DNA of 62,910 bases from Myxococcota bacterium (GTDB taxonomy: Bacteria > Myxococcota_A > Polyangia > Polyangiales > Houyiibacteriaceae): contig JANQQS010000136.1 in assembly GCA_028284955.1 (NCBI GenBank), positions 1 to 62,910 of the forward strand, given 5' to 3'. This document shows positions 3,983-15,877 of the stretch, one piece after another. The notes below the pieces were generated by a model. That model was given only the letters and a program-made list of their open reading frames with translations. It was not told the DNA's origin and did no database searches. Made by a program: the position numbers and the translations under genes. How positions within the stretch are numbered: position 1 is the first letter of the stretch; each line of letters begins with the position of its first letter.

Positions 3983-4933
3983 TCAGGAGGAAATTTCGGT
4001 GATGAGTTCTTCGATGGAAGATGCGGTGAGCACGCGTTCTGCAATGCGTTCGAGAGCTTCGGGAGAGGCCCGGTCAATGTAGGCTCGAACTTTCGGTGAA
4101 AGGAATCCAAACTTGAGCTGGATTTGCTTGGCCACGATGTTGGACAGAGCTTCTTTGCGTCCTTCTTGTCGTCCTTCTTGTCGTCCTTCTTGTCGTCCTT
4201 CTTTGCGTCCCTCTTGTCGTCCCTGTTTTCGTCCCTGTTTTCGTCCCTCTTCTCGCCCCTCCTCGAGGAACTCTTTGACGAGTTGGCTTTGATACTCGTA
4301 GCCTTCGATCAGCATGGCTCTCAGCTCCTTACGCGCGACTTCCGGCAATGTGGACGCGACAACGTCAATATACTGCTTGGCGGTTTCTTCGTCGACCCCA
4401 GGCAAGCTTTGCAGAAAGGCATGAAGCACATCCTGCTTGTGCGGGCCCCCTCCATGTGCGAGGGCCGACAGAAGAGCTCGTTCGGGAGCCTCTTGATGCG
4501 GGGTAACCACGACGGGAACGACACCCGGTCCGACTACGCAGGGACGCAGCTCCATGGATGGCAGCGCGACGCGAATGGGGTCGCCCGCCCAGCGCGCAAC
4601 CTGGGCGTCGGGAGTGACTACCAAAAGCAATGCGGGGCACCCAAACTGAGCATGGCCCGCGGCGAGATAGACTGGCCACGAGCGGCGCTTACGCGCATCG
4701 ATGCGGAGCTGAACTTCGATGACGAGAGCGAGGACAGGCTCATCATGCTCCAGCAACAACACCACATCAGCGCGATATTCCACCGGCGCTGGCTGACTGA
4801 GGTCACCAGATACGACCCGAAGCGAGGAATAGCGAGGCAGGTCTACGGACAGCGCGGTGGTCAGCAAGTGTGGCGCCAGTTCGGGATGTTCTCGAAAAAG
4901 CGAGACTAAGACTTCGTGCAAAGCCGACGGCAT
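3983..4933 (-). CDS. Rpn/PD-(D/E)XK nuclease-family protein
   Basis: 316 residues, started at ATG 4933 because AGGGAGGAGACA precedes it (a GTG at 4951 is upstream of that site). The N-terminal half has the family core, YRADVVLLL followed about 15 residues later by ALVIEVQL, matching the D...ExQ/K arrangement of PD-(D/E)XK nucleases in the Rpn/putative transposase group. Residues about 220-265 form a low-complexity EGR/KQGR/QEGR/KEGR repeat, a hallmark of this group, encoded by 12-bp tandem units. Known relatives are recombination-promoting nucleases; whether this copy is active cannot be told. Confidence 0.75.
   Translation of the reverse strand: MPSALHEVLVSLFREHPELAPHLLTTALSVDLPRYSSLRVVSGDLSQPAPVEYRADVVLLLEHDEPVLALVIEVQLRIDARKRRSWPVYLAAGHAQFGCPALLLVVTPDAQVARWAGDPIRVALPSMELRPCVVGPGVVPVVVTPHQEAPERALLSALAHGGGPHKQDVLHAFLQSLPGVDEETAKQYIDVVASTLPEVARKELRAMLIEGYEYQSQLVKEFLEEGREEGRKQGRKQGRQEGRKEGRQEGRQEGRQEGRKEALSNIVAKQIQLKFGFLSPKVRAYIDRASPEALERIAERVLTASSIEELITEISS
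4153..4260 (-). repeat. 12-bp tandem repeat inside the Rpn-like gene
   Basis: About nine imperfect 12-bp units of the type TTCTTGTCGTCC (plus strand) encode the EGR(K/Q)EGR(Q) stretch. The units are in frame, so copy number can change without breaking the gene. Confidence 0.75.
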
Positions 4934-5160: not shown

Positions 5161-5234
5161 GCACTACGATAGCGGCCCTACGTCAGCTGCTCTGAACTGA
5201 AATCGTCAAAAGACTGCCCGAGCGACGAGCGTAC

Positions 5235-5301
5235 GTCCGTATCATTCCTCCCGCACATGCTCAATGTTGAACTTCTCCACAACATGCCCCGGGTTCGATT
5301 G
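5235..5301 (+). repeat. REP/RAYT element right end, solo copy
   Basis: About 67 bp match the right end of the intact transposase element at 10916-10982, ending in the same 18-bp terminal sequence ATGCCCCGGGTTCGATTG (5284-5301). No transposase is attached here, so it is a solo end left by deletion or recombination. Confidence 0.65.
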
Positions 5302-5409
5302 TCAGCTTTCATCGGCTGTTGGTGAAGTTGACGACCGAGTGGCGGTTAGAGGTCGCGGCGGAACTGTGGTTTCGGTTCATCGTCGTGACGCTGCGCGCCG
5401 ATCGCGCGA

Positions 5410-5715
5410 CTACCTGGACGAGCCGGTGGGCGGCTCTCCGTCACGACTTCCGTGCCACAGCGCCAGCACCTGCACGACGTCGCCGTCGAGCTGGAAGTAA
5501 ACGAAATAGCGGATCCGGCGAAGGTAGACGCGGCGAACACTTGGGTCCTGCTCCACCGGACGGCCAACGAGCTCCGGGCGGTCTTCGAGCTGGAGCAAGA
5601 GTGAATCGAGATCAACGTCGAACGCGGAGGGGGCTTTGTCCCGGTTTTCCAGCCACCACACGCGCACTGCGAGGATCTGCTCCGCCGCGAGCGCGGTGAG
5701 TTCGACCGTGGCGAT
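5410..5715 (-). CDS. ParE/RelE-family toxin with missing canonical start
   Basis: The frame encodes a ParE-like toxin: VELTALAAEQIL...VWWLENRDKAP (first helices), LLLQLEDRPELVG, VRRVYLRRIRYFVYFQ and VQVLALWHGSRDGEPP at the C-terminus. Family alignment places the first residue near 5715, where the codon is ATC, right after the antitoxin stop (TGA 5721-5719) and preceded by a good Shine-Dalgarno-like GGGGTGAG. The first ATG/GTG/TTG in frame is GTG 5667, which would delete the first helix. Either translation starts at a rare AUC codon, coupled to the antitoxin, or a start mutation has killed the toxin. Confidence 0.6.
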   Translation of the reverse strand: MATVELTALAAEQILAVRVWWLENRDKAPSAFDVDLDSLLLQLEDRPELVGRPVEQDPSVRRVYLRRIRYFVYFQLDGDVVQVLALWHGSRDGEPPTGSSR

Positions 5716-5718
5716 GGC

Positions 5719-5943
5719 TCACCCCACTTCACGGAGAGCACGAAGGAACGCGCGAGCATCAACTAGCTTGCCTGCCTCGGCGTCGGCTTGCCCATCGCGA
5801 ATGAGCCCCAGCTCCTCGTCCGAAACGTGGACCGGTTCGGAGGCGTCCCCGACCCACACCGTGACGTGGGATCCTTCCTCGAGATCGGCGTTATCGTCGA
5901 GGACGATTTGCCCATTCACCACGCGTCCAGTCCAGTGCTCCAC
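5719..5943 (-). CDS. Antitoxin partner of ParE-like toxin
   Basis: 74 residues from GTG 5943. The N-terminal GRVVNGQIVLDDNADLEEG segment resembles small SpoVT/AbrB-like or DUF-type antitoxin leaders. The C-terminal VSDEELGLIRDGQADAEAGK...DARAFLRALR is an amphipathic helix of the sort that wraps ParE toxins. The toxin frame begins immediately after its stop codon, so the two are translationally coupled, antitoxin first, as in parDE operons. Exact antitoxin family not assigned. Confidence 0.55.
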   Translation of the reverse strand: MEHWTGRVVNGQIVLDDNADLEEGSHVTVWVGDASEPVHVSDEELGLIRDGQADAEAGKLVDARAFLRALREVG

Positions 5944-6048
5944 AAGCCAAGCATAGCAGTTGAAGACGCCGAGTCATGCGCACCTGGCGGGCGGCAATGC
6001 CGCACGCGTAACTCCTCTTGCAGACCTCAAACAAGAACCATCGCGCGC

Positions 6049-6580
6049 CAATCGAACCCGGGGCATTTTCTGGGTTCACTGCAGCCGCCTGATCCTACAT
6101 CCCTGATTGCAGACGTGTCGCGCTACCGCCGGAATGCGCCCAGTTGCAATCGCCACCCTCGATCCGCCGATATCGCTACTTCGAACACGCAAGTTGTTGA
6201 CGTCACTTATGCAAACGTCGGCCTGAAATTTGAAGCCCGACGTGCGTGACGCTTCCTTGCATCGTCAAAGAAGGCGACGTTGTTCTATCCACCGTCCGCA
6301 CCGTCGCTCGCTTCTACCTGCTGCGACCCGACCGCGAGCTCACCCGAGCCGTTCGCTACATTCTTGCCCACTACGCGAACAAGCACGGCATTGTGCTCCA
6401 CGCCGCATGCTTGATGAGCACCCATCTGCATCTCGTATATCGCGACCCCCTCGCGCAAGGGCCCGCGTTTCGTCGTGACGCGGTTGCCGCCATTGCCGAT
6501 GTCGTGAAGGCGCTCAGAGGCTGGCGGGGCGACGTCTTTCGCGGCGGTCATAGCAAAGTCCGACTCCGCACTCCCCAAGC
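6049..6580 (+). mobile_element. Truncated REP-associated transposase element (copy 1)
   Basis: Starts with the 18-bp terminal sequence CAATCGAACCCGGGGCAT (6049-6066) and is nearly identical to 9648-10180 of the intact copy through the first third of the transposase. Similarity stops at about 6580, just after codons for RTPQA. The right half is absent and replaced by the AbiE locus. Confidence 0.7.
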
Positions 6581-6596
6581 GGTCTTGCCAACTTGA
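6246..6596 (+). pseudogene. 5' fragment of REP-associated tyrosine transposase
   Basis: Codes 116 residues from GTG 6246. The first 112 match the intact 303-residue transposase at 9845 almost exactly, including the HUH motif (ACLMSTHLHLV), then diverge (VLPT, stop). The region with the catalytic Tyr (IGYVLANPV in the intact copy) is missing, so the product cannot be a working transposase. Confidence 0.75.
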
Positions 6597-6643
6597 CCCT
6601 CATACCGTATGTTTTTTACTGTAGATTTCTAACGGTCGCAGCC

Positions 6644-7231
6644 ATGAGCCTTGCAGCAGAGCCCAAACTTGAGCCCGGACGAGCCTACCGCACCCGGGCG
6701 CTTCGGCGCTGGAGCGCCAACCCGACGAGGCTGGCCCGTCGTCTCGTTCGCGAGGGCAGGCTGCACGAGGCTGCGCACGGGCTCTTCTACGCGCCCGTCG
6801 AGAGCCGCTTCGGTCCGGCACCGGCGCGAGACGAGGAAATACTGCGCGCATTCTTCGATGACGACCGCTTCGTGATCACCGGACCGCCGCGCTGGAATGC
6901 GCTGGGCCTCGGCTCGACCGCGATGTTCGCAGCGACGCTCGTCTACAACACCCGGCGCACGGGCGAGTTCACCTTCGACGGGCGGCGCTTCCTGCTTCGA
7001 CGGGTGCTGTTCCCGGAGAGCCCGCCGCCGGAATGGTTCGTCATCGATCTGCTTCAGCATCACGAGATGGCTGGCATCTCCATCGCCGAGCTCGAGCAAC
7101 AGCTCACGGCCACCCTGCGTGAAGGACGCTGGAACGCGAAGCGGCTTCGCGACATGGCGAACGAGTACGGAACGAAGGCGACGCTCGCGATGGTGGAGCG
7201 CTGTCTGGCTGAAGCCGGAGTCGAGGGATGA
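6644..7231 (+). CDS. abiEi: AbiEi-type antitoxin (type IV TA, AbiE family)
   Basis: 195 residues from ATG 6644. The N-terminal helix-turn-helix part (LRRWSANPTRLARRLVREGRL, then LHEAAHGLFYAP) and the following domain (ITGPPRWNALGLG, FAATLVYNTRRTGEF, FLLRRVLFP, RDMANEYGTKATLAMVERCL) match the AbiEi antitoxin/transcription-regulator layout. Its stop overlaps the ATG of the next gene (ATGA, 7228-7231), the usual AbiE arrangement. An AT-rich stretch at 6600-6640 with ACCGTA...TAACGGT may hold its promoter and operator. The partner toxin is broken, so this is now an orphan. Confidence 0.7.
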   Translation: MSLAAEPKLEPGRAYRTRALRRWSANPTRLARRLVREGRLHEAAHGLFYAPVESRFGPAPARDEEILRAFFDDDRFVITGPPRWNALGLGSTAMFAATLVYNTRRTGEFTFDGRRFLLRRVLFPESPPPEWFVIDLLQHHEMAGISIAELEQQLTATLREGRWNAKRLRDMANEYGTKATLAMVERCLAEAGVEG

Positions 7232-7452
7232 GCTTCATCCACGAAGACCCGGATTTCCAGCAGCTCATCGGCATCGTGGCGCGGGATGCGGGAATCGCCG
7301 CGGCGCTCATCGAGAAGGACTACTGGGTAGCGCACACCCTGTGGGCGCTGCATGAAACTGGCCTCGAACTCTGGTTCAAGGGCGGCACCTCGCTTTCCAA
7401 GGGCTTCGGTCTCATCCAGGAGGGGCCTTACATCGAACCCGGGGCATTCTAG
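7228..7452 (+). pseudogene. abiEii: AbiEii nucleotidyltransferase toxin, interrupted
   Basis: Begins with a convincing AbiEii N-terminus: SFIHEDPDFQQLI...IEKDYWVAHTLWAL and the nucleotidyltransferase signature LWFKGGTSLSKGFGLI. After EGPY the frame runs into the REPIN-like element at 7432 and stops at 7452. Only about 67 of the roughly 300 residues usual for the family remain. The Asp-containing part of the active site that follows GGTSLSK is lost and no remainder is visible downstream of the element. Confidence 0.75.
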
Positions 7453-7513
7453 TGTTCACCTGCGATCGGCCTATGTCCCTGATCGAGGGTTCAAAATGCC
7501 CCGGGTTCGATTG
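7432..7513. repeat. REPIN-like 82-bp element
   Basis: Two REP-like ends face each other: ATCGAACCCGGGGCAT (7432-7447) and its inverse ATGCCCCGGGTTCGATTG (7496-7513). They flank a 48-bp spacer whose first part (GTTCAC...TGC...TCCCTGAT) resembles the inner left end of the transposase element. This is the structure of a REPIN, a non-autonomous element moved by a RAYT. It sits inside the AbiEii reading frame. Confidence 0.65.
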
Positions 7514-7585
7514 TTATTGTTAAGTTCGACTCAGGAGCTCACGATCCGCGAAATGGGCACTAGCACGGCGTTTCGGTTTCAAAGT

Positions 7586-9172
7586 CTATTGATTCGCGGA
7601 AATCAACGCGAAACTGCTCACCTGGGCCCCCAGGGGTAGAGGTGAATTGAGTTTAGTAGCGCCGCTTCCGTCATCGCCGACAACGTAGAGCTCAAAAATA
7701 TTGTCGACATCCTCGTCTGCGACGTAGACCACACGTCTGCCATCGGGCCAAATCGCGAAAGCACCAACAGAAACACCGTCCCGATATGGACCGGTAAGGC
7801 GCACACTCGGTGCTCCATCAAGCTCTTTGAGGTGCAAACCACTCGAACTTTCTTTGCGGGTGCGATAAACCACCTTGGTGCCGTCAGGTGAAAGCGCGAA
7901 GTTTCCGCTCACGTCTTCATCCGGTGCCAAATCTCCACTGAGTTTGGTACGAGTACCAGCGACATTAACGTAATATAACTCAATTACATCACTGGTATCA
8001 GGGTCATCGATGAACACAATCCGAGCCCCGTCTGGGGTGATATCCATCGTAGGATTTCCCGGTGAGTTTGTGGGCACACGTGGAACCAGGTTGCGAGTCG
8101 TGCTTCCATCGTTGTTGACGATGTACAGTTCATCGACGAGTTCGTAAGGATAGAGGCGTGTCCTGGTCGAGTAAGCAACAAAGTTGCCATTGGGTGCTAT
8201 GTGGAAGCTGCCGACGTCCCTATCGCTGTCGAAATCTGGGTTCAGCTTGATGCTCTGAGTGCCGTCGGTATTGACGGCGTACAGCTCCCGAACACCTTCC
8301 GTATCGATGTCACCCACGAAAAAAACCTGACTTCCATCCCGCAAAACGTCGAACGACCATATGTTTCGCCCTGCAGGCACAAATGGAGATATTTTTTTGT
8401 GGGCTGTGCCGTCAACGTTGACCGCAAATAGCTCCGTATAACCTGTTGGGTTAGGTGAGGTCGCATAGACGACCTGGTTGCCGTTTGCTGCGATGGCAAA
8501 CGCAACCACATTCGTTCCGGCAGAGAGGGCTGAGTTTAGCTTGATTGTTTTGGCCCCGTCGGTATCCGTGGCGTACAGCTCGCTCTCGCCATCGTTGTCC
8601 TGGCGAAGCCGGTAAATAACCTTGCTCCCGTCAGGTGTGACGTCGAACGAAAGGACATCTGCTTCACTCCCCATGTCGGGATTCAGCTTCAGACTCCCGG
8701 TGCCATCAATTTTTATCGTATAGAGGTCTGCGACGCGGTCTGTATCTTGTTCGGCTCGGTACACTACGCGGCCACCGCCCGGTAGAATCTGAAAACCAAA
8801 AACTTCTCCGCCTGGAACTAGCTGGGGAGTGAATTGGACTGGAGTATCGTTCGGTTCCAATTGAGCACGAAAAAGCCCAACCAGGCCGACCCCGTAGACG
8901 AGCTGCGCTTTCACCGGAATGGTGGCATCAGCGCCTGAGTCGTGGTCGCTGCCCGCGCCGGAGACCGTCCCCGCGTCCAATTCTACCGGCGGAACGCACC
9001 GCTTATCTTCCGTCACGTACAAGCCGTCAGGACACTTAGCAGTGGAACAAGCGCTGACTGAAAACGATAAACTCCATGCGGCGAATGCAGACAATCGAAA
9101 CATGTAAGCAACCACGCCCGATGCGACCAAACGAACGTCGAGGATGCAGAACGAAATCGCGCGGTAGACCAT
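7586..9172 (-). CDS. TolB-like beta-propeller lipoprotein
   Basis: 528 residues. A long leader ends in a lipobox (SVSACS), followed by CPDGLYVTEDKRCVPP and an Asp/Ala-rich linker. The rest is eight repeats of about 45 residues with the signature DGxxVVYxxxxD...ELYxVxxDGxxxxKLN, the PD40/WD40-like blade of TolB-type propellers. The last repeat is cut short (VSSFALISANQ, stop), so the 3' end may have been trimmed when the REP region formed. The leader and promoter are paralogous to those of the pseudogene at 460-1065; that conservation supports the ATG at 9172 although an internal ATG at 9103 also precedes the hydrophobic core. Ligand unknown. Confidence 0.75.
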   Translation of the reverse strand: MVYRAISFCILDVRLVASGVVAYMFRLSAFAAWSLSFSVSACSTAKCPDGLYVTEDKRCVPPVELDAGTVSGAGSDHDSGADATIPVKAQLVYGVGLVGLFRAQLEPNDTPVQFTPQLVPGGEVFGFQILPGGGRVVYRAEQDTDRVADLYTIKIDGTGSLKLNPDMGSEADVLSFDVTPDGSKVIYRLRQDNDGESELYATDTDGAKTIKLNSALSAGTNVVAFAIAANGNQVVYATSPNPTGYTELFAVNVDGTAHKKISPFVPAGRNIWSFDVLRDGSQVFFVGDIDTEGVRELYAVNTDGTQSIKLNPDFDSDRDVGSFHIAPNGNFVAYSTRTRLYPYELVDELYIVNNDGSTTRNLVPRVPTNSPGNPTMDITPDGARIVFIDDPDTSDVIELYYVNVAGTRTKLSGDLAPDEDVSGNFALSPDGTKVVYRTRKESSSGLHLKELDGAPSVRLTGPYRDGVSVGAFAIWPDGRRVVYVADEDVDNIFELYVVGDDGSGATKLNSPLPLGAQVSSFALISANQ

Positions 9173-9222
9173 GAAGTAAACCTACGGCGCGAACCGAGGC
9201 CGCGACAAATCAGCATTTCATT
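9125..9222 (-). repeat. Duplicated 5' gene region, copy 2
   Basis: Partner of 1020-1115. It covers the upstream region and the first about 16 codons of the propeller lipoprotein gene. Confidence 0.6.
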
Positions 9223-9647
9223 GTGGGCAACACAAAGTGCATATGACCTACCGGCGTGCCTCTATCGCTTCTTCCAGAACAAGGACCTGGGTCTATCCCC
9301 GAGCGCAGTTCAACATTCGTGACACCCGGACCATGCCATCGTTTTGCCGACGCTTCGATGCTTCACCCTTGCGTCGAAGGCGTGGCCGAGTTTGCCAAAG
9401 TTTTGCCGATGCTCGACTGCTGTTCCCGCGCACTGTTTTCGATGGCCATGAAGTCGCGTCGTTCGATGGCCATTGGAGCGCAATCGATCCGGACACAGTC
9501 GGGATGGACATCATGGTGTGACGGGTGTGCGCGAGGTCGTGATGGCCATTGCGGGACGAGCGTTTTGCACGCGGTGCGATGGCCATCGGGAGATTTGCGA
9601 GCTGGGCGTTCAGTCGATGGAGTCGTCTTCGCCAATCGAAACCCCGC
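9223..9647. other. Intergenic stretch without convincing gene
   Basis: Between the propeller gene and the intact transposase element no reading frame looks coding. It contains the GATGGCCAT cluster (9441-9586) and, just before the element, a partial echo of its end (CCAATCGAAACCCCG at 9632-9646). Confidence 0.5.
9441..9586. repeat. Four copies of GATGGCCAT in 146 bp
   Basis: Exact 9-mers occur at 9441-9449, 9465-9473, 9541-9549 and 9578-9586, each containing the palindrome ATGGCCAT. Spacing between copies is 24, 76 and 37 bp. Confidence 0.6.
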
Positions 9648-10982
9648 CAATCGAACCCGGGGCATTTTCTGGGTTCACTGCAACCGCCTGATCCTACATC
9701 CCTGATTGCAGATGTGTCGCGCTACCGCCGGAATGTGCCCGACGGCGCTCACCACCCTCGATCCGCCAACATCGCCAGTTCGAACACGCAAGTCGTTGAC
9801 GTCACTTGTGCAAACATCGGCCCGAAACTTGAAATCCGACGTGCGTGACGCTTCCCTGCATCGTCAAAGAAGGCGACGTTGTCCTATCCACCGTCCGCAC
9901 CGTCGCTCGCTTCTACTTGCTGCGACCTGACCGGGAGCTCACCCGAGCCGTTCGCTACATTCTTGCCCACTACGCGAACAAGCACGGCATCGTGCTCCAT
10001 GCCGCGTGCTTGATGAGCACCCATCTGCATCTCGTATATCGCGACCCCCTCGCGCAAGGGCCCGCGTTTCGTCGTGACGCGGTTGCCGCCATTGCCAATG
10101 TCGTGAAGGCGCTCAGAGGCTGGCGGGGCGACGTCTTTCGCGGCGGTCATAGCAAAGTCCGACTCCGCACTCCCCAAGCCATCCTCGACAAGATCGGCTA
10201 CGTCCTCGCGAACCCCGTGGCTGTAGGCGCCGTCAGATACTCCAAAGATTGGCCGGGGCTGTGCACACACGTCGACGACATGGGGCGGAGAACCTTGCAC
10301 GAACAACGCCCCACGCTCTACTTTCGAGAACGCGGAGAGATGCCCGAGAGCGCGAGCCTTCGATTCGAGCTTCCGGAAGAGCTCGTTCAGGGCTACGGCG
10401 AAGACGCCACGCGGGAAGCCATCCACCGCTCCGTCAAAGAACACGAACAAGCGGCGCACCAAGCAATCCTAGAAAAAGGATGGACCTACCGCGGTGCCGA
10501 TCGCTGCAAGACCATTTCGCCCTACGCGCGTGCAACGGCCTACGAAGTCTTCGGTGCACGCAACCCACACTTCGCCACCAAGGGCGGCGGCATGAAAGCT
10601 TTCTTCGAAGCCGTCGAAGAGCTCCGCGCGTTCAGAACCTACTACAAGACCGCCCTGGCCCGCTGGAAGGAAGGTCACCGCGAGGTCGTCTTCCCCCACG
10701 GAACCTACCTCATACGCGTCCTCCACGGTGTCTGCGCTGACCCGGCTCCTGGCTAGCCGCCCGAACAGCCCAAGCGAACCGCAGCCTCAACTTCGGCGTG
10801 GCACCGGTCCGTCCACAGAACGCCTCGTACTGCAAACATCGAGTCCGGCTGTCGCGTTTTGCTCGCTCACACGTGCTCACGAAGCAACCGGTCTGGCGAC
10901 GGAACTGCTCTCCGCGTCCGCATCATTCCTCCCGCACATGTCCAACGTTCAACTTCCCCACAACATGCCCCGGGTTCGATTG
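9648..10982 (+). mobile_element. Intact REP-associated tyrosine transposase element (copy 2)
   Basis: 1335 bp bounded by perfect 18-bp inverted ends: CAATCGAACCCGGGGCAT (9648-9665) and ATGCCCCGGGTTCGATTG (10965-10982). It contains a single transposase gene. Left-end and right-end sequences recur separately at 6049 and 5235, and as a short inverted pair at 7432-7513, so this copy is the likely source of activity for all of them. Confidence 0.7.
9845..10756 (+). CDS. REP-associated tyrosine transposase (Y1/IS200-like HUH)
   Basis: 303 residues from GTG 9845. The HUH motif is ACLMSTHLHLV (H60, H62). The conserved RAYT/TnpA helix is LDKIGYVLANPVAVGAVRY, with Tyr119 the likely catalytic residue. 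It is longer than minimal TnpA (about 150 residues); the C-terminal half (FELPEELVQGYGEDATREAI..., SPYARATAYEVFG...) is a helical extension seen in RAYT proteins. RAYTs nick single-stranded REP hairpins, and the flanking inverted sequences here would be its substrate. Not accompanied by TnpB. Confidence 0.8.
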   Translation: MTLPCIVKEGDVVLSTVRTVARFYLLRPDRELTRAVRYILAHYANKHGIVLHAACLMSTHLHLVYRDPLAQGPAFRRDAVAAIANVVKALRGWRGDVFRGGHSKVRLRTPQAILDKIGYVLANPVAVGAVRYSKDWPGLCTHVDDMGRRTLHEQRPTLYFRERGEMPESASLRFELPEELVQGYGEDATREAIHRSVKEHEQAAHQAILEKGWTYRGADRCKTISPYARATAYEVFGARNPHFATKGGGMKAFFEAVEELRAFRTYYKTALARWKEGHREVVFPHGTYLIRVLHGVCADPAPG

Positions 10983-12148: not shown

Positions 12149-15100
12149 TTAGTATTTCTGCACAACTTTGCCGTCCGAATGATACTCCGTCACACTTCCG
12201 TCTGGTCGAAAGACCCTAGTCATAGATCCATCGGTAACTGCAATCGATTGTGGAGGATCACCGTACCGGGCTTGACTACGCATAAAGCCAATACAGCATG
12301 AACACATATCGCGGTCCACGCCGATGGCATCGTGACCGGCGGCCAATTGTTGTTTTTCAGCATGGCTTGCCGCTGCTTGGCCTGGAGGGTGGGCACCATC
12401 GACGGCACCTCCATTTCGGAGCTGGTACGGTTTTTCAGCGCCGGCTTCTCGTTCGGCTTTTTGCGCGGCCTGGTCGACCATGCTTCGGACTTTTTCTGGT
12501 GGTTGACGCTCTACATGGCCGATTCCGTCTTGCGTACGTCGACTGTATCCGCTTTCGGTGAGCGGAGCATCTGGACCGTCTGCAGCCACGCAGCCACGCT
12601 TACTATCGGCTTCAAAGGCGCGTGCAGCCGCCTCTCTTGATTTCTTCACGAGCGCAGCGTCTTCGCCGCGGACCGGTTTCCATTCCGGAAAAGGTGTGAC
12701 GGGATCCGGTCGACGTCGGTCGGCATCGGGGCGACGTTGATACCTGCCATCTTGGTAGAAGAAGTTCGCCGGATCTCTGTCCGCCCTTGGGTCGACCCGT
12801 CCCACTTCTCTTCCAGACTTTTCTTGTCGACGTTTCAGATCAGCTCTGCGCTGCTCAATCGAGATTCCGCCTTCTGGAATCGGCGGTCGGCGCCCTTCAC
12901 CATCAGGCCCCGCTTCTTCATCTGGACGCTTGCGTTCCTTGCTACGCGGACAGTTGTCTTCAAGCCCACGGAGATCAACCTGGGTAAGCGGTCGGTCGCA
13001 GTAGGCGTACAGATTAATGCCGCCGCTGATGCCGCTAGGGTCGCTTTGAAGATAGCGACCTAGCTCGGGGCTGTAGGTGCGAAAACGATTGTCATGCAAT
13101 CCGGTTTCGGCGTCGTAGTAGTGGCCAGGAAAGCGCAGAGGTTGATGAAAGTCGTGGCCGGTGTGGATGTGAGCTGTGCCGTAGGGTTCGATGGTCGCGT
13201 GCCAAACGTTTTGGCCGTGTTCGTCTTGGATGAGCTCTGGGCATCCGATTTGATTGGTGAAGACGTAGTAGCGCTTGCCACTGTGGGGTTCTCCTTCGAT
13301 GTCGTCGTAGTCGATGAACAGCAGGGGGACCCAGGCGATTTCGTCAGGGTAGACGTACATTCGCAGTCGCCCGTCGGGAAGGATTTCGGCGGCGAGCCGA
13401 TCCGTGTCCCAGTAGTAGACCCACATCTCTCCATCGAAGCGCTTTTGAGTGCGTCGACCTAGCGCATCGTATTCAGCCTCCCAGGTGCGTCCGTCAGGGA
13501 AATCGATGCGAACGAGTTGGTCCTTGGAGTCGTAGTGATAGCGAACTGGGCCTTGGAACGTGTGGCGGATGCTTACATGATCGCGGTCGTTGTATTCAAA
13601 GCGGTCGCTGTCGACATGATCGAGAAAATTGCCGCGAACACGGATCGTTCGATTCGGTGTACGCAGAAGGTTGCCGGCGAGGTCATGTTCGTACTGTTCG
13701 ACGGATCCATCGGGACGATGAACTTCGCGCAGCCGATGAGCCGCATCGTGAACAAAGTGGGTGGTTCCTCGCTGGCTATCTTCAACCGAAGATAGATCGC
13801 CTTCGCCGGAGTAGCCGTAGGTGCGAGACCAATATTGAGAGGGGTCGGTGTCGGTATAGGCGACCTTTGTTCGGCAGCGGCCTTCGGTATCGTATTGACT
13901 AAGCTCAACGGTGCCGCTGGCCAACTCGCGCAAGGTGACGCCCGGCGTCAGAGTGCGTATGCGGTGCGTTTGGTCGGTCGGGTCGATGACGATGAAGGTG
14001 CCGCGCTCCGGCCGCAGATAGCGGGTGACAAAGCGTCGCAATACACGCGCTTCACTTATGCCGTAGACGTCGAATCGACGGGCAATGCCGAGCCCATCGC
14101 GGCAGTCCTCGGTACGCTTGTCTGCTGCGTCGTAGTTGAAGGCGAGCACGCCAGCTTGACCCGTCGCTTCGATGAGTCGGCCACGGGTGTCGTATTTGAA
14201 GGTCCGGGTGTCGCCCGAGGCGAGAGTTTGAGAGGTTTTGAGACTGCCTGGACCATAGGTCATGGTCAGAAGTAGCTGACCGTCCCCGTCGCGTTTTTCG
14301 ATCAGGTTGCCGGCGGCATCGTAGGCGTAGCGTTCGCGGACTTTGTCATGGCGATGCACTTCTTCGGTGCGATCGAGTAGGTCGAGCGTGTAGCGGCTTT
14401 CCGTGCCGAGCGGGTCTCGGACACCGATAAGCTCTTCGCTTTTGCTGTAGGTGAAAGTGGTGCGGGCACCGAGGGGATCGGTATGACCTACGCGAAGGTT
14501 CCACGATGCATATTCAAACTCGTGCTTGCTTCCGTCGAAGTCTTGATACCAGCGAACATTCGCGTTGGCGTCGTAGGCTTGGGTGCGGCGGGCGCCGTTG
14601 GGAGCGATTTCGCGAATCTCGAGGCCCTGAATGTCGGTTACGACATTCGCTACATGAGCATCCGGATCGTCGACAGCATCAATTTTCTCGGCGATGGCCG
14701 TCGGCAAAACAGCAGGAAATGAAACGCGAGCGGGAAGGTGGTCTGGATAGCGAATGAGATGGCCGTACTCCCATTCAAGCGGCGTTTGGGCCACGAAATA
14801 TCGTTTCCATGAATCGGGCTGGCCGTCGTCAGGGACGGGTCGAACGCGACCTAGGTCGTCGACCTTTGCATAGGCGGCGCCGTGGGCGTCGATGCGCATG
14901 TGCCATGTGTCACCATGGGGATCGATTTCTCGGACCGTGCGGCCTTCGTCGTCGAGCTCAAAAAGCCGAGCACCGCCATAGGGATCGAGAATCTCGGTGA
15001 TCGCGTGATTCGGAGCGTAGCTATAGATCCACTGCCCGCCGTTGGCGCGCGTAACCACCGTCTTGCGTTCGAGCGGAAGATACTCAAGGCGCACCTCGTC

Positions 15101-15877
15101 AACGCCATCTTCGCCTCGGGAATGAACGCAGCGACCTTCGCGATCGCACTCAAATTCGAAGGCATAGCCGCGCAGGTCGACCTTCTTGCACACGCGACCT
15201 TGGTCGTCGTATTCGTATCGACGGTGGTGACGATAGAAGTCTTCGACCTCGACGAGGAAGCCGCGCGCGTCGTAGGTGTACTGCACCATGGTGTGGTCGG
15301 TGCCGTCACCCGGGTGAAAGTGGACTGAACGAAGGTGCCCATCTTGCCAACAAAGCTTGAGGACACGGCCGTCGGAGCATCGAAGGCATCGGAGTTTACC
15401 GACTGCGTCGTATTCGAAGTCGACATGAATATTGTGTTGAACGAATGACGAAACTCGCGCGGGGGAATCGGGATCTTTGAAAACAAAATTTGCAATCGGC
15501 TCGTTCGGTTGATGAATGCGGTAGTGATGGTCGCGAACGCGTTCGAGAGTATGGGTGCCACGTCGGAGCCGCTCGCCATCCTGCTCGATGTAGGGAAAAG
15601 AGGTTTCTCGGCCCGCTTGATCGGTGTAGGTAAGACCCTCGAAGTCGTAGACAAGTTCGCGATCAAAATCGTGGCGAAAGCCAAAGCCGAGACCTCTATC
15701 AACTTGGTGATGACGGCTGTCGTAGTAGCGCCACCAGTCGAGGTTGATCGCGCCAGGTAAACGAAAGTCGGTAAGCTGGTCGAGATTGGCCCCGGTGACG
15801 ACGTCAACCGGGTCTCCAACCAAACGGTGACCGTATGCGCTAGATAAACGTTCTTTGGAAAGTCGTGTGCAAGCCAT
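12149..15877 (-). CDS. rhs: Rhs effector with deaminase-fold toxin tip
   Basis: 1242 residues. The N-terminus has the DUF6531-type motif (GDPVDVVTGANLDQLTDF...PGAINLDWWRYYDS). The middle is a long series of YD repeats (YDxxGRL...), and the core ends with the Rhs signature ISGGINLYAYCDRPLTQVD then LRGLE near residue 972. Beyond it lies a 269-residue variable tip (DNA 12152-12958). The tip contains HAE (1172-1174) and CSCC (1192-1195, CxxC), the zinc-binding and catalytic motifs of cytidine-deaminase-like toxins. It is encoded directly after a PAAR-like gene and before two small genes, the standard T6SS cargo layout. Which deaminase family (nucleotide, DNA or RNA target) is not clear. Confidence 0.85.
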   Translation of the reverse strand: MACTRLSKERLSSAYGHRLVGDPVDVVTGANLDQLTDFRLPGAINLDWWRYYDSRHHQVDRGLGFGFRHDFDRELVYDFEGLTYTDQAGRETSFPYIEQDGERLRRGTHTLERVRDHHYRIHQPNEPIANFVFKDPDSPARVSSFVQHNIHVDFEYDAVGKLRCLRCSDGRVLKLCWQDGHLRSVHFHPGDGTDHTMVQYTYDARGFLVEVEDFYRHHRRYEYDDQGRVCKKVDLRGYAFEFECDREGRCVHSRGEDGVDEVRLEYLPLERKTVVTRANGGQWIYSYAPNHAITEILDPYGGARLFELDDEGRTVREIDPHGDTWHMRIDAHGAAYAKVDDLGRVRPVPDDGQPDSWKRYFVAQTPLEWEYGHLIRYPDHLPARVSFPAVLPTAIAEKIDAVDDPDAHVANVVTDIQGLEIREIAPNGARRTQAYDANANVRWYQDFDGSKHEFEYASWNLRVGHTDPLGARTTFTYSKSEELIGVRDPLGTESRYTLDLLDRTEEVHRHDKVRERYAYDAAGNLIEKRDGDGQLLLTMTYGPGSLKTSQTLASGDTRTFKYDTRGRLIEATGQAGVLAFNYDAADKRTEDCRDGLGIARRFDVYGISEARVLRRFVTRYLRPERGTFIVIDPTDQTHRIRTLTPGVTLRELASGTVELSQYDTEGRCRTKVAYTDTDPSQYWSRTYGYSGEGDLSSVEDSQRGTTHFVHDAAHRLREVHRPDGSVEQYEHDLAGNLLRTPNRTIRVRGNFLDHVDSDRFEYNDRDHVSIRHTFQGPVRYHYDSKDQLVRIDFPDGRTWEAEYDALGRRTQKRFDGEMWVYYWDTDRLAAEILPDGRLRMYVYPDEIAWVPLLFIDYDDIEGEPHSGKRYYVFTNQIGCPELIQDEHGQNVWHATIEPYGTAHIHTGHDFHQPLRFPGHYYDAETGLHDNRFRTYSPELGRYLQSDPSGISGGINLYAYCDRPLTQVDLRGLEDNCPRSKERKRPDEEAGPDGEGRRPPIPEGGISIEQRRADLKRRQEKSGREVGRVDPRADRDPANFFYQDGRYQRRPDADRRRPDPVTPFPEWKPVRGEDAALVKKSREAAARAFEADSKRGCVAADGPDAPLTESGYSRRTQDGIGHVERQPPEKVRSMVDQAAQKAEREAGAEKPYQLRNGGAVDGAHPPGQAAASHAEKQQLAAGHDAIGVDRDMCSCCIGFMRSQARYGDPPQSIAVTDGSMTRVFRPDGSVTEYHSDGKVVQKY

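Follow-up and report, generated by a model that had tools for sequence, protein, structure and literature searches.

A probable low-copy TIRtron and the debris of its earlier copies in a myxobacterial genome

The locus

The DNA analysed here (the window) is a stretch of 62,910 nt on the forward strand of contig JANQQS010000136.1, assembly GCA_028284955.1, from a Myxococcota bacterium (Houyiibacteriaceae). An intact element lies at 9648..10982 (+), and comprises a left terminal inverted repeat (TIR), CAATCGAACCCGGGGCAT, at 9648..9665 (+), followed by 179 bp, a transposase gene, 208 bp and the right TIR at 10965..10982 (-). A search of the window finds the end exactly at 5284-5301(-), 6049-6066(+), 7496-7513(-), 9648-9665(+) and 10965-10982(-), and a sixth time at 7430-7447(+) with 2 mismatches, both at the two outermost bases. 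Dinucleotide shuffles predict 0.03 such ends in the window, and none of them reached six. An earlier note on this DNA had described one 18-bp end and its inverse at six places, and an intact transposase element of 1335 bp; both descriptions hold, the second to the base.

Part of the element is present elsewhere in the window. A truncated copy at 6049..6580 (+) consists of the left end and the first 335 nt of the transposase gene, and is 94% identical to the first 532 bp of the element, while a solo right end at 5234..5301 (+) is 91% identical to its last 68 bp; these two are the truncated copy and solo right end of the earlier note. The boundaries of the intact element agree with those of the partial copies to 3 bp or less.

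The remaining two ends, at 7430..7513, form an inverted pair, in which a left end and some 40 nt of left-end origin are joined to an inverted end. The pair had been noted before, with a length of 82 bp; it measures 84 bp overall, or 80 bp between 17-bp perfect arms. It folds as one long hairpin, of about -27 kcal/mol as DNA. Its interior aligns with the left end of the element (0 of 500 shuffles were equally good) and not with the right end, which points to an internally deleted derivative: by its sequence, the pair is a mini-element, adjoining a truncated abiEii gene.

Toxin-antitoxin genes lie among these remnants. A ParE-like toxin gene (5410-5667, -) separates the solo right end from the truncated copy, and an abiEi antitoxin gene (6644..7231, +; PADLOC AbiEi, E 3e-50) lies between the truncated copy and the mini-element. 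Of the abiEii toxin gene (7228..7419, +), only the first 64 codons or so are present: homology breaks off some 10 bp short of the mini-element, beside which the missing 3' part was looked for and not found. Elsewhere in the genome there is a near-full-length abiEii homologue (G000:C149:32966). We regard abiEi and abiEii as neighbours of the debris. The 1.46-kb piece between the outer ends at 6049 and 7513 could in principle be moved in trans, because these ends are convergent.

Some short repeats were seen around the intact left end. Directly upstream of this end, CGCCAATCGAACCC, the sequence CGCCAATCGAAACCC forms a partial direct repeat of it (window 9631-9661). Just upstream of the element, a palindrome, GATGGCCAT(T/C)G, is present in four copies within 150 bp (9440-9588); genome-wide, CGATGGCCATYG gives 15 strand hits at 9 places, for 0 with the reversed control. 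A T-arm-like motif, GGGTTCGATT, raised the possibility of tRNA mimicry, but no tRNA is found at the ends and the likeness was taken as coincidence.

The transposase

The transposase gene (9845..10756, +) starts with GTG and encodes 303 aa, with an HUH motif (H60/H62), a catalytic Y119 in the sequence YVLANP, and W136-P-G. H60, H62, Y119, N123 and P124 are invariant in alignments of 10 and 31 sequences, as is W136. The Y---NP motif is the signature of class 2, the class that holds the RAYTs (Quentin et al. 2018, PMC6006769). Against the NCBIfam profile REP_Tyr_transpos (NF047646), the window protein scores 30 bits (E 4e-7), below the curated cut-off of 80 bits, and its match to Pfam Y1_Tnp is only marginal; nine of 10 family members match the NCBIfam profile at E 0.01 or better. 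Searched against solved structures, the family profile retrieves E. coli TnpA-REP (4er8; E 7.5e-4). The same structure is the best match, by both Foldseek and VIA-align (Z 14.4, rmsd 2.9 over 157 residues), of a model predicted from the 31 sequences (pLDDT 82.7). By motif, profile and predicted fold, the protein is a class-2 (RAYT-like) HUH tyrosine transposase, here bracketed by its ends, and its identification as a RAYT in the earlier note is upheld. In the structure comparison, tRNA-His guanylyltransferases also appear at Z 5-7, which we judge to reflect a shared core arrangement.

The family has features of its own. The residue before the first histidine is T in most members (the window protein reads THLH), and not D/N as in the subclasses tabulated in PMC6006769; between the histidines, many members have a non-hydrophobic residue (E, S, A), again in contrast to those subclasses. 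The C-terminal half, of 165 residues, is conserved (FP-GT motif) and has no Pfam match; predicted alone, it reaches a pLDDT of 62, a model too poor for a structure search.

Homologues and their ends across the phylum

Of 282 genomes drawn from the whole phylum, 50 have homologues (E 1e-10 or better), often in the form of several diverged copies; the hosts of homologues include Sorangium, Minicystis and many uncultured Myxococcota. The scan of genomes used the closer alignment; the diverse alignment had no conserved stretches. No protein match was found in the plasmid and phage collections.

Upstream and downstream flanks were compared at the 77 homologous loci with complete flanks, counting ungapped inverted repeats with a score of at least 12. 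Such a repeat was found between a gene's own flanks at 35 of the 77 loci, for 17 of 231 swapped and 1 of 77 shuffled flanks; with this simple ungapped test, more than half of the homologous loci are without a clear TIR. In the closest relatives, the upstream repeat is about 165-190 bp from the gene and the downstream one about 230-245 bp, with clustering at about U-170/D+235 (U-197/D+229 in the window). In a more distant sub-group, the upstream repeat is at about 55 bp.

The end common to one subfamily, GATCCGACCG[AT][CG]GTTG, is present at 8-23 sites per genome, for 0-2 with the reversed control. All 45 sites near listed genes are convergent (left ends 18/18 '+', right ends 27/27 '-'). About half of the sites are away from listed genes, and some of these may belong to unlisted fragments.

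A second homologue, 31% identical, is present in the source genome itself (G000:C146:42451-43296; L092). Repeats of its own, like GACCCCGGGAC(A/G)TTTC, cluster locally there; their core, CCCGGG.CATTT, resembles the window end.

Copy number of the end

The source genome (G000) is 6.07 Mb long, in 223 contigs, and 96.6% complete; its relatives are Myxococcota. Beyond the window, just one exact copy of the end was found in it, at G000:C27:4678; this is a solo right end, where 31 bp agree with the right end of the element. The other 14 non-window matches carry 2-3 mismatches, and none of the four inspected among them has element-like flanks. A DNA search with the whole element for diverged copies elsewhere in the genome returned just the window pieces and the C27 site. 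This makes 7 exact or near-exact ends, with one doublet, in 6.07 Mb, to which an incomplete assembly could hide a few more. Among 183 genomes of the order, the end (at most 1 mismatch) is found in the source genome only, plus one isolated 1-mismatch match elsewhere, and none of the 182 other genomes has an end attributable to the window element.

The ends thus do not belong to a repeat family dispersed over the genome. The earlier note would have given up its reading if the end occurred nowhere else in the genome and related genomes shared identical fixed positions. What we find lies in between: one end is on another contig, and identical ends were not found in relatives.

A short cluster of CCAATCAAGCC, CCAATCAAACC and CCAATCGAACC, like the outer part of the TIR, is seen in the same genome (L011 1465-1518; G000:C5:20820-20873). 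An excess of CCAATCGAACC in the genome (273, for 82 with the reversed control) was set aside as uninterpretable, because the control differs in dinucleotides.

Are the ends REPs?

Given the class of the protein, the 18-bp ends might be REPs, with the RAYT spreading REPINs in a genome that has only just acquired the system or has lost most copies. The inverted pair folding as a hairpin fits such a scenario, and so do the relatives, where tandem end clusters beside genes are common and roughly one end site in two has no listed gene nearby. However, no GTAG tag is found beside any window end, and the folding of the right end as single-stranded DNA is no stronger than that of shuffled sequence. 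With 16 nt more, the left end can form a modest hairpin of 6-8 bp (z -2.3), and only the 84-bp pair folds strongly, as expected of any inverted pair. In the family as a whole, 17% of the TIRs at 35 loci have, on either strand, a fold that surpasses 95% of shuffles, and GTAG is present in 3. Moreover, REPs occur in tens to hundreds of copies per genome, against 7 copies in 6 Mb here, and relatives have 8-23 in each genome.

For want of the tag, and for its folding and copy number, we reject the REP identity of the 18-bp end, and consider a classical REP/RAYT/REPIN system unlikely. The ends may nevertheless have a weak REP-like structure, since the left end can form a hairpin and ACC...GGT occurs in roughly one in two TIRs of the family. 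Where the earlier note saw a RAYT mobilising non-autonomous REPINs, the RAYT-class protein, the mini-element and the partial copies are retained, but the ends are not REPs and, with a single inverted pair, there is no REPIN population.

Selection and mobility

The truncated and intact copies differ at 21 of 197 non-coding positions (10.7%) and at 9 of 335 coding positions (2.7%; Fisher p 0.0003). Eight of the nine codon changes are synonymous and one is non-synonymous (p 0.0003). As the coding part is far less diverged than the non-coding part, and its changes are mostly synonymous, the transposase was under purifying selection, and in both copy lineages it probably remained functional during most of their separate history.

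Alternatively, the gene might be a domesticated host gene, the additional copies being due to segmental duplication or recombination between repeats, and not to transposition. All copies but one are within 5.7 kb, and relatives keep low copy numbers, with copies mostly diverged, as this scenario would have it. We nevertheless hold it to be very improbable. Shared sequence ends at the TIRs, within about 3 bp outside (CGC is common to two left ends, TC to two right ends), and one right end is on another contig. In a relative (G007), two 98%-identical genes are at unlinked sites, and their identity stops exactly at the left TIR. In another (G001), an element with a TIR array is absent at the homologous place in G011, where the flanks are 97% (right) and 94% (left) identical. 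The left 1.55-kb gene segment adjoining the element is inverted between these two genomes, with a breakpoint beside the element (L189 4386-7419 and L188), so that the G011 site is not a clean empty site. A second synteny comparison, at L137, yielded no empty site of use. The window element itself gave no transposition event, no empty site and no target-site evidence, the genomes at hand including no other member of its genus.

A probable TIRtron of a myxobacterial subfamily

The reading that we favour, with a probability of about 0.8, is that the region is a TIRtron: a low-copy, IS-like element in which a class-2 HUH single-tyrosine transposase (TIRYT) lies between two TIRs, together with the debris of earlier copies, namely the left half, the solo right end and the internally deleted 84-bp mini-element. 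It is a new TIRtron of a myxobacterial subfamily, decaying and accompanied by low-copy relics, of a kind already known but little studied, and its TIRYT is sister to the REP-associated RAYTs.

TIRtrons were described by Di Nocera and colleagues (PMC3733652) as RAYT-like genes flanked by TIRs, which also occur alone, paired or clustered. The element shares with them the RAYT-like HUH/Y1 gene, element-specific non-REP inverted repeats at a near-fixed distance, few copies per genome, and solo, paired and clustered copies of the end. There are differences, too, besides the T before the HUH motif. The motif GGGGWSAS, published for some TIRtron TIRs and not a requirement, is present in 0 of the 35 family TIRs. 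The conserved C-terminal half of the 303-aa protein, without Pfam match, may differ from that of subclass 2.1, to which TIRYTs mostly belong and for which tails of the DnaA_C/HTH_23/28 type are described (PMC6006769). With REP/RAYT systems (the REPtron of E. coli TnpA-REP, 4er8) and REPINs, the element has in common the protein class, catalytic residues and fold, and inverted end pairs that form a hairpin; unlike them, it has no GTAG-tagged palindromic REP and no family dispersed over the genome. As for an ordinary IS200/IS605 insertion sequence with a class 1 TnpA, it can be practically dismissed: the HUH/Y1 fold and catalytic core are common to TnpA of IS608 and ISDra2, but the motif is Y---NP (in YVLANP) and not the class 1 Y---Q, which by itself contradicts this identity, the protein has 303 aa instead of about 150, the ends are inverted repeats and not subterminal hairpins, and the closest structure is TnpA-REP.

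How might such an element move? A dimer of the protein would bind to single-stranded DNA, probably the template of the lagging strand, at one end sequence, and nick beside the end through Tyr119, with a metal held by H60/H62. The DNA between two ends would then be moved, and in trans the protein could do the same with any DNA that both ends enclose, the mini-element for instance. As the ends are inverted, the recognised form is present at one end only per strand. The enzyme would then have to act on both strands, or through a strand folded so that its two ends pair, which the 84-bp mini-element could do easily. We infer each of these steps, from cutting and the choice of strand and target to the way in which inverted ends are handled.

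A broader proposal, which we put forward only tentatively, is that of a phylum-wide myxobacterial clade of HUH single-tyrosine enzymes, with a dedicated C-terminal half of 165 residues, that may move DNA between hairpin-free inverted ends by a mechanism unlike that of the strand-specific, hairpin-guided IS200/REP enzymes, with co-evolution of each gene and its end sequence. Among bacterial transposases that have been domesticated, RAYTs are the best known. Many diverged genes, each between its own matching ends and with mini-elements and clusters, would be natural intermediates from insertion sequence to REP/REPIN, and bear on how REPs arose from IS-like ends. The enzyme/end pairs of the family are testable, and raise the mechanistic question of how inverted ends are handled by an enzyme family known for acting on one folded single strand.

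Two other features of the window are worth recording. Close to the element, a large ORF (1242 aa; 12149-15877, -) contains repeats that look like those of an RHS/YD-repeat protein. On the other side, a 12-bp tandem array at 4150-4261, inside a gene with a DUF4351 match, codes for a basic/acidic repeat of the EGRQEGRK type.
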